64,000 bases of DNA. It comes from Poseidonibacter antarcticus (GTDB lineage: Bacteria > Campylobacterota > Campylobacteria > Campylobacterales > Arcobacteraceae). Position 1 is the first letter of the stretch. Every line of letters starts with the position of its first letter. The stretch is taken from assembly GCF_003667345.1 (NCBI RefSeq), contig NZ_RCWF01000002.1:248001-312000 (forward strand), written 5' to 3'. This document shows positions 53,686 to 55,678 of this stretch, one piece after another. The translations under genes and the position numbers were made by a program. The notes below the pieces were generated by a model that was not told the origin of the DNA, made no database searches, and worked only from the letters and a program-made list of their open reading frames with translations.

Positions 53686-55074
53686 TTATTTCTCATAAAT
53701 CTTAAAATATTTACCTTTAATTCTACCATTACTTAGACCTTCTAAGGCTTTTTTCACAACTTCTTTTTTAACAGCTACATAAGAGCAAAAATCTAAAGAA
53801 TTAATTTTCCCAATATCATCTTTGGCTAATCCAACACCTGCTGTTAAAGCACCTAAAATATCCCCTGCTCTAACTTTTTGTTTTTTACCACCATTTATGA
53901 ATAATGTTCTATAGTCACTATCAATTTTATAGTCTAAATCATCATTTAATTGCTCTACTCTTTCAAATTGTAAAGTATCAAATTCTTCTTTTAAATCTTC
54001 AACTTTATCTTCTTCATCAGGAGTAAATAGTGAAATTGCTAAACCACCCTTACCTGCTCGTGCAGTACGACCAATTCTATGTGTATGCGTTTCAACATCT
54101 CTTGCTAAATCATAGTTTATTACTAAATCAATATCATCAATATGTAAACCTCTTGAAGCAACGTCTGTTGCTATTAAAATTGGATAAGATTTATTTGAAA
54201 AGAAAATAATAGTTTCATCTCTTTGTTTTTGTTCTAAATCAGAATGAAGTGTTAAAACATCAAGTCCTAAATCATATAAATCATCACTTAATGCATCACA
54301 TTGAATTTTTGTATTACAAAAAATAATTACTGATTTTGCTTTATTTTCTGAAATTAGTGCAGGAATAATTGATGTTTTTACATCATCTTTTGTTTCATAT
54401 AATTTTTGATCAATGATTACTTTTTCTTCATTTTCATTTTTTATATTAATTGGATTTTTTGTAACAAATTTTGCTAAATTATCAATATTTTCTTGATAAG
54501 TTGCAGAAAATAACATAGATTGTCTATTTTTTGGAAGTACTTCAATAATTTTACCTATGTCTTCTAAAAATCCCATATCAAGCATTTTATCTGCTTCATC
54601 TAAGACTAATGTTTTTACTTCTTTTAAATCTATATTTTCTTCATTTATGTGTTTTAAAATTCTTCCAGGAGTTCCTACAACTATATGTGCTCCATGGAAA
54701 AGTGAAGATACTTGAGGTCTATAAGCAACTCCACCGCAAAGTGTTAAAACTTTTACATTATGAATATGTCTTGATAGTTTTCTTATTTCTATTGCAATTT
54801 GATTTGCAAGTTCTCGTGTTGGTGCCAAAACGATTGATTGGATTCTAAATCTTTTAACATCAAGTTTACATACTATTGGAATAGAAAAAGCTACAGTTTT
54901 ACCTGAACCTGTTTTTGCTTGTGCTATTACATCTTTTTCATCTAATAAAAAAGGTAAAGATTTTGCTTGTATTTCAGTCATCTTATCAAAACCTAAAGAA
55001 TCAAGGTTTGATAAGAACTCTTTTGAAATGTTTAATTGTGAGAATTTTTCATCTTCTTTGATATTTGTAGAAAT
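53686..55074 (-). CDS. dbpA: DEAD-box RNA helicase, DbpA type, apparent ATT start
   Basis: A DEAD-box helicase with AQAKTGSGKT (motif I), PTRELA (Ia), VLDEADKMLDMG (II), FSATY (III), VASRGLHIDDIDLVINYD (V) and HRIGRTARAGKGG (VI). A C-terminal RNA-binding domain (from RVRAGDILGALTAGVG-like KVRAGDILGAL) fits DbpA, which acts on 23S rRNA in ribosome assembly. The first standard start in frame is ATG 54981, but the essential Q-motif (FSQLNISKEFLSNLDSLGF) lies upstream of it. An ATT at 55074 with AAAAAGG seven bases upstream would give 462 residues, the normal DbpA length. No ATG, GTG or TTG exists between that point and the upstream in-frame TAA. Confidence 0.8.
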   Translation of the reverse strand: MSTNIKEDEKFSQLNISKEFLSNLDSLGFDKMTEIQAKSLPFLLDEKDVIAQAKTGSGKTVAFSIPIVCKLDVKRFRIQSIVLAPTRELANQIAIEIRKLSRHIHNVKVLTLCGGVAYRPQVSSLFHGAHIVVGTPGRILKHINEENIDLKEVKTLVLDEADKMLDMGFLEDIGKIIEVLPKNRQSMLFSATYQENIDNLAKFVTKNPINIKNENEEKVIIDQKLYETKDDVKTSIIPALISENKAKSVIIFCNTKIQCDALSDDLYDLGLDVLTLHSDLEQKQRDETIIFFSNKSYPILIATDVASRGLHIDDIDLVINYDLARDVETHTHRIGRTARAGKGGLAISLFTPDEEDKVEDLKEEFDTLQFERVEQLNDDLDYKIDSDYRTLFINGGKKQKVRAGDILGALTAGVGLAKDDIGKINSLDFCSYVAVKKEVVKKALEGLSNGRIKGKYFKIYEK

Positions 55075-55138
55075 GATAAAGCCTTTTTGTTGTTTTTTTG
55101 ATATTATATCTAAAACTTAGGCTTCATCTTAAATTTAT

Positions 55139-55678
55139 TTATTTTTTATCAATTCTTTTAAATATAAATGAAATACCAATTGCTATAACTATAACAATTC
55201 CTATTCCTACATATTTAAAATCATCAGCAACAGCTAAGATATACTCACCAGCTGCATAAGAACCATAACCAACTACAACAGCCCAAATAATAGTTGCAAA
55301 TACGTTATAAATACTAAACTTTACTGATGAATATTTTGTTAATCCCATAGCAAGAGGAATTAATGTTTTAATACCATAAATATATTTTTGAACAAAAACA
55401 ACGAGTGAACCATATTTTCGCATCATTATATGTGCAAGTGCTATTTTTCTTCCATAATTTTTCATCATATCTTTTGCATATGATTTATTTTTTCTAGCTA
55501 AAAAGAATAAAAATTGATCACCTATAAAGTTTGCACTAGCAGCAACAGCAATAGAAATATATAGATTTAAATCACCTGCAAATGATAAAACACCTGCAAC
55601 AATCAATCCTACAAACCCTCCACCAAAAGAGTATGCAAATAAAGCTATATATCCCCAATCTTTAATTAATGCTTCCAT
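55139..55678 (-). CDS. DedA-family membrane protein
   Basis: A 179-residue inner-membrane protein of the DedA/SNARE-associated family, now thought to flip lipids. It shows a glycine-rich N-terminal loop (SFGGGFVGLIVAGVLSF), FIGDQFLFFLARK, the conserved basic region YGSLVVFVQKYIYGIKTLIPLAMG, and a C-terminal span ending in KRIDKK. It shares the A of start/stop with the upstream gene (one-base overlap). Confidence 0.85.
   Translation of the reverse strand: MEALIKDWGYIALFAYSFGGGFVGLIVAGVLSFAGDLNLYISIAVAASANFIGDQFLFFLARKNKSYAKDMMKNYGRKIALAHIMMRKYGSLVVFVQKYIYGIKTLIPLAMGLTKYSSVKFSIYNVFATIIWAVVVGYGSYAAGEYILAVADDFKYVGIGIVIVIAIGISFIFKRIDKK

Follow-up and report, generated by a model that had tools for sequence, protein, structure and literature searches.

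The dbpA helicase gene of an Arcobacteraceae genome very probably starts at AUU and appears to be one of several family genes with AUU, AUC or AUA starts

The window analysed here, a stretch of 64,000 nucleotides with a GC content of 26.7%, belongs to a genome of 2.9 Mb in 55 contigs (labelled G000), whose best named matches include Poseidonibacter lekithochrous (86%) alongside other Arcobacteraceae. On the minus strand of this window lies a DEAD-box RNA helicase gene, dbpA, whose conserved N-terminus extends 5' of its first ATG. Hereafter, ATG, GTG and TTG are termed canonical starts, ATT, ATC and ATA (AUU, AUC and AUA in the mRNA) are termed AUH, and SD denotes a Shine-Dalgarno site. The features of the locus, each with the evidence for it, are the following.

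53686–55074, minus strand: dbpA, DEAD-box RNA helicase, 462 aa counted from ATT, stop codon TAA included (profiles and homologues)
55072–55074, minus strand: predicted ATT start codon of dbpA (ATT in 8 of 8 AUH genomes of the genus)
55082–55088, minus strand: SD-like AAAAAGG, seven bases 5' of ATT (sequence; an AAAGG/AAAGGA-type site is kept in the family)
55103–55108, minus strand: TATAAT, likely the -10 box of a dedicated dbpA promoter, about 30 bases 5' of ATT (sequence)
55117–55119, minus strand: last in-frame TAA 5' of the dbpA start (sequence)
54967–55044, minus strand: conserved N-terminal block with the Q motif, FSQLN...MTEIQ, mostly 5' of the first ATG (alignment of relatives)
54979–54981, minus strand: first in-frame ATG of dbpA, the internal Met of MTEIQ, which opens a mechanical ORF of 431 aa (ORF list)
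53698–53907, minus strand: DbpA RNA-binding domain PF03880 (Pfam, 1.4e-22)
55139–55678, minus strand: DedA/VTT-domain gene, the 5' neighbour of dbpA, about 60 bp from its start (ORF list and profile)

The helicase is assigned to DbpA by an equivalog-level match to NCBIfam NF008744 (616 bits against a cut-off of 524), which runs from residue 10 of a query translated from 55080, and by its C-terminal DbpA RNA-binding domain. Members of the DbpA subfamily are specifically activated by hairpin 92 of the 23S rRNA. An earlier note on this DNA had claimed that the Q-motif region is in frame yet lies 5' of the first ATG, that no ATG, GTG or TTG separates the in-frame TAA from that ATG, and that an ATT at 55074 is preceded by AAAAAGG at seven bases. 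Our reading agrees on all three points. The block at 55044–54967 precedes ATG 54981 for the most part; codon-by-codon reading of the minus strand in the dbpA frame, from TAA 55119–55117 to ATG 54981, found zero ATG, GTG or TTG codons; and AAAAAGG occupies 55088–55082, with a protein of 462 aa following from the ATT. The conserved stretch FSQLNISKEFLSNLDSLGFDKMTEIQ begins 10 codons 3' of ATT and 21 codons 5' of ATG 54981. We propose that translation of dbpA very probably begins at AUU 55074, where the ordinary initiator tRNA would initiate inefficiently and keep helicase output low. Judging from the TATAAT at 55103–55108, the mRNA probably has a leader of about 20 nt from a dedicated promoter.

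Sequence comparison revealed the same ATT, at the same place behind AAAGG, in the separate assemblies G004, G008, G003, G009, G002, G007 and G006 (86–92% identical). The arrangement AAAGG-N7-ATT without a canonical start is present in 8 of the 10 genus genomes, and the remaining two have TTG. The sole close competitor of this ATT is ATC 55077–55075, which is in frame and near-cognate as well; furthermore, ATC followed by ATT or ATA is seen repeatedly in the family. Initiation at this ATC, instead of or in addition to ATT, nevertheless seems improbable, as it lies too close to the GG (four bases), and the codon before ATT is GCT, TCC or TTC in 5 of the 8 AUH genomes of the genus. The two codons between AAAGG and ATT differ within the genus (TTT ATC, TTT GCT, CAT TCC, TAT TCC, CTT TTC and TGT TCC). 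Given that the codon before ATT varies, ATT is the shared one.

At the family level, dbpA is present in 95 of 104 genomes and its 5' end is readable in 93; G081 and G084, in which dbpA begins right at the edge of a contig, were left out, together with a second partial copy in G100 and a C-terminal piece in G026. Starts were sought in an interval 20–36 codons 5' of the MTxIQ methionine. A canonical start stands at the expected place in 47 of the 93 genomes (ATG 30, GTG 9, TTG 8) and is absent from it in 46, which are spread over 9 of 17 genera. In all of these 46, an SD-like site is followed by an in-frame ATT (30), ATC (8) or ATA (8), a result that is partly by construction, as the picking rule asks for ATH and an SD; the near-constant spacing and position are not by construction. 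The distance from the GG to the AUH codon is 7 nt in 37 genomes, 8 in 5, 6 in 2 and 5 in 2, and most AUH codons lie 24–31 codons before the MTxIQ methionine, near the canonical-start place of the other 47. A few of the 46 carry a canonical codon outside the searched interval, for example a TTG that falls within the conserved block (G028, G063 and G087) or a codon far upstream (G004 and G087). The gene combines the marks of a near-cognate start, namely the absence of a canonical start, an SD at a functional distance and a codon kept in relatives, and comparison indicates the place, nature and conservation of this start.

Two further explanations dispense with AUU initiation. Starting from the internal ATG 54981 would yield a protein of 431 aa and reduce the similarity further 5' to a relic. 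This ATG is the first canonical codon, and a protein made from it retains the Q residue and every motif after it. Nevertheless, the block 5' of it is conserved as protein throughout the family, and most of the substitutions seen within the genus between ATT and ATG are at codon positions 1 and 3, with few at position 2; the numbers are small, and amino-acid replacements roughly equal silent changes in number. Moreover, 9 of the 46 AUH genomes have no ATG, GTG or TTG at all before TGSGKT, the ATP-binding motif (motif I); an internal start would therefore destroy the enzyme in those genomes. We consider initiation at this ATG highly improbable. The second explanation invokes the A-rich tract at 55088–55100, just 5' of the start, where a sequencing error or a programmed frameshift might join an upstream canonical start to the helicase. 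The tract is indeed present, yet it varies among relatives, and the same start anatomy is seen in many separate assemblies. A base-calling error is excluded because it could not recur across separate assemblies. As for frameshifting, the other two frames have no ATG, GTG or TTG opening into the start site in 37 of the 46 AUH genomes, G000 included (zero in either frame), which leaves just 9 of 46 with such a route and makes frameshifting very unlikely. Taken as a whole, we give this explanation next to no credence. The earlier note had itself set two outcomes against an AUU start, a frameshift in the poly-A tract and an ATG at 55074 in relatives. The former fails on the frame counts; as for the latter, relatives carry no ATG at that place. 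Comparison with relatives strongly supports the AUU start.

Besides dbpA, several genes of the Arcobacteraceae, ftsK among them, appear to form a set with ATT, ATC or ATA starts. A uniform rule was applied to the 30 best-scoring loci for each of ftsK (100 matching genomes), tatD (100), DUF234 (96) and an RhlE-type paralogue of DbpA (70). For ftsK, an AUH codon and no canonical start were found in all 30 family loci (best 30 of 100). Nearly all of these have an in-frame stop close 5', and ATA or ATC is therefore the sole reasonable start. For tatD, 29 of the best 30 of 100 loci are AUH, the remaining one combining an AUH site with a TTG that lacks an SD; for DUF234, 29 of the best 30 of 96 are AUH and the remaining one is ATG. 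The RhlE-type paralogue gave no AUH start in its best 30 of 70 loci, with 28 canonical starts with an SD and 2 without. In other families of the order, the homologous tatD codon is ATG (10) or TTG (2) in 12 of 12 genomes, and the same codon in Arcobacteraceae is ATA or ATT. Eight further family genomes picked for depth comprise 6 with AUH and an SD, 1 whose AUH codons have no clear SD, and 1 with GTG. As judged from sequence, tatD is the cleanest AUH case, because the conserved IDTHCHLD comes directly after the start. Outside the family, 24 of 25 ftsK loci could be placed: 12 have AUH without any canonical start, 4 have AUH and a canonical codon without SD, 6 have a canonical start with an SD, and 2 are unclear. 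With 12–16 of the 24 placed loci being AUH, the ftsK AUH start extends beyond Arcobacteraceae.

Candidates elsewhere in G000 were collected from two sources. A pairwise screen of parts of G000 and G004 took in 185 orthologous gene pairs, of which 7 have at least 15 aligned codons before the first canonical codon. Three of these read as AUH (dbpA, DUF234 and a histidine kinase); the other four, a tRNA cluster, a shadow ORF and two conserved leaders before GTG or ATG, were read as not AUH. A scan of G000 over 1,592,000 of 2,917,500 bases and 1380 called genes, biased towards genes with an SD and a long gap to the next canonical codon, yielded nine loci: dbpA, tatD, ftsK, cobB, ubiB, an HDOD protein, a TetR and an AraC regulator, and a CGNR-zinc-finger protein. 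In most, not all, of the scanned loci, profile models reach 5' of the first canonical codon: TatD position 1 falls at residue 3 and CobB position 2 at residue 2, and the matches of TetR_N, HDOD, AraC_binding and ABATE begin at residues 12, 13, 14 and 10, respectively. At least 11 of about 1380 G000 genes, approximately 0.8%, look AUH-initiated. The loci other than dbpA are as follows.

L325:8548-10758 = G000:C1:48548-50758, minus strand: ftsK, ATA behind AAAGGC (outside the window)
L343:7995-8780 = G000:C1:367995-368780, minus strand: tatD, ATA directly before I-I-DTHCHLD (outside the window)
L202:9454-10332 = G000:C2:189454-190332, plus strand: DUF234 gene, AAAGGA-N6-ATC, without a canonical start (outside the window)
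G000:C5:158422-159580, minus strand: sensor histidine kinase, GGAG-N6-ATT in G000 and G004, without an SD-spaced canonical start; G004 also has a TTG, which overlaps the SD
L329:5390-6652: cobB, probable AUH start (G000 scan)
L377:977-1798: HDOD gene, probable AUH start (G000 scan)
L337:16149-16739: TetR gene, probable AUH start (G000 scan)
L202:11423-12223: AraC gene, probable AUH start (G000 scan)
L201:25-603: CGNR gene, probable AUH start (G000 scan)
L347:10519-12054: ubiB, probable AUH start (G000 scan)

The breadth of this set bears on function. The AUU start might be real and yet carry no regulatory meaning, if this lineage simply tolerates AUH codons and the codon drifts; such an account shares its start site with our preferred one and differs from it on function alone. 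AUH starts are common to several unrelated genes, ATT, ATC and ATA interchange, and dbpA toggles between AUH and canonical starts within genera; parsimony counts about 10 such changes, on a tree that is poorly resolved and whose genomes are not independent (88 of 93 rows differ). Against drift, ftsK retains ATA or ATC in 30 of 30 loci (best 30 of 100) even though a single base change would give ATG, and ATG accounts for 115 of the 136 SD-preceded canonical starts in the G000 sample. In addition, the base at -1 (55075 in the window) is C in 23 of 46 AUH dbpA genes versus 3 of 47 canonical ones, and in 6 of 11 AUH genes versus 6 of 136 canonical starts of G000 (Fisher p 2.8e-5), counts that cover the dbpA and G000 sets (ftsK and tatD being left out) and, for dbpA, come from genomes that are not independent. 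Drift without function is a real possibility, to which we give somewhat less than even weight. As to selection on the codon itself, ftsK suggests that it acts, and the frequent switching of dbpA suggests a looser constraint.

The upstream promoter motif was compared in the same manner. An exact TATAAT at -50 to -12 occurs in 33 of 46 AUH versus 8 of 47 canonical dbpA genomes as raw counts, and in genus g2 (L099-L117 and others) TATAAT lies just upstream of dbpA in 11 of 11 AUH versus 0 of 20 ATG/GTG species. When the comparison is confined to phylogenetically independent pairs (3, on starred branches), the association between AUH and TATAAT does not reach significance. A tie between the AUH start and a dedicated promoter, striking in the raw counts, is lost in these pairs and is not relied upon here. 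As for gene arrangement, dbpA abuts its 5' gene in the genus g2 species with an ATG or GTG start.

The preferred reading, inefficient initiation at AUU, involves the initiation machinery. An unusual initiator tRNA was sought among the tRNA loci of G000 that were examined, and nothing odd was found; there are three Met(CAT) tRNAs, one of which we take to be initiator-like from its C1-A72 mismatch and GGG/CCC anticodon stem. In genes controlled by IF3, expression falls as IF3 rises, and the effect is lost when the start is changed to AUG. An AUH start on infC, which would support IF3 control without being strictly required for it, was not found in the genus, as infC starts at TTG in all 6 readable loci of 10 (L119, L120, L122, L126, L127 and L128). 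Thus, the classical infC AUU loop is not visibly conserved. Likewise, dbpA is canonical in 47 of 93 family genomes, so any tie to IF3 levels, as the earlier note suggested, is not obligatory for DbpA, and since ftsK, tatD and DUF234 are also AUH, the AUU start is not peculiar to a ribosome-assembly gene. IF3 is reported to reject near-cognate start-codon pairs in E. coli (PMC9410913); dbpA output is therefore expected, by analogy, to be sensitive to IF3.

We thus propose a putative model for dbpA expression. The AAAAAGG site, at a good spacing, would place the ribosome on the dbpA mRNA, which probably has a short leader from a promoter just 5' of the gene. The ordinary initiator tRNA, with its CAU anticodon, would then pair with AUU at its first two positions. 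Initiation at this near-cognate codon would be inefficient and little helicase would be made, with output rising when IF3 proofreading of initiation is weak. The reduced output and the IF3 sensitivity in this model are taken by analogy from other bacteria. The likeliest role of the AUU start is that of a throttle on dbpA output. A broader scheme, which we put forward tentatively and consider rather unlikely, is that selection holds an AUH set in Arcobacteraceae (for ftsK, in Campylobacterales) comprising ftsK, tatD, dbpA, DUF234 and probably cobB, HDOD, TetR, AraC, CGNR, ubiB and the histidine kinase. These genes might be throttled jointly by initiation stringency, set by IF3 relative to 30S, which would link chromosome segregation to 50S assembly, and C at -1 might be the set's own mark.

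To our knowledge, genes with AUU, AUC or AUA starts in model bacteria can be counted on one hand, and gene finders, as far as we know, consider ATG, GTG and TTG only. Here, at least four genes, ftsK among them, appear to keep AUH starts in many genera of one family. If so, the annotated N-termini of these proteins would be wrong in many public genomes, and the family would offer a natural system for asking why a weak start codon is kept, as a fixed expression brake or as a sensor of initiation stringency. The switching of dbpA between AUH and canonical starts inside single genera would permit direct comparison.

Among known systems, E. coli infC, which encodes IF3, has an AUU start with IF3 feedback, and its sequence record reads ATT. 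Its AUU start, retention in relatives and place among the genes of the translation apparatus resemble those of dbpA; unlike it, dbpA encodes a 23S rRNA helicase with no feedback loop evident, and infC of the genus starts at TTG in the six readable loci. E. coli pcnB shares an AUU start, which is inefficient and reportedly limits expression so that the protein stays scarce; it is a different gene, however, and the family dbpA codon varies among ATT, ATC, ATA and canonical ones. The orthologous helicase gene of E. coli also has a non-AUG start, although its GTG is an accepted alternative start and no AAGG-type SD lies in the bases just before it. A literature search of partial coverage, with most subscription journals outside it, returned no AUH start of dbpA, ftsK or tatD in this phylum. 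In S. aureus, initiation profiling placed near-cognate starts on infC (AUA), cvfC1 (AUU), ccpN (AUA) and citZ (AUA), those of cvfC1 and ccpN being conserved; relative to AUG, reporters with such starts had an output of about 10% in poor medium, and one gene reached up to 30% when the medium was rich (PMC13009471). The S. aureus genes resemble the present set in having near-cognate starts, some of them conserved, but they carry a strong extended SD, whereas in Arcobacteraceae the SD is short, of the AAGG type and almost constant in its spacing, and the gene set is a different and larger one. AUU starts were likewise proposed from comparison for lepA of Borrelia burgdorferi and Bacillus licheniformis and for ainS of Vibrio fischeri (PMC1780047, PMC5601948); these are isolated cases in other genes and phyla. 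In summary, dbpA belongs with the known AUH-start genes infC, pcnB and ccpN, and the surprise lies in the size and depth of the set that surrounds it.
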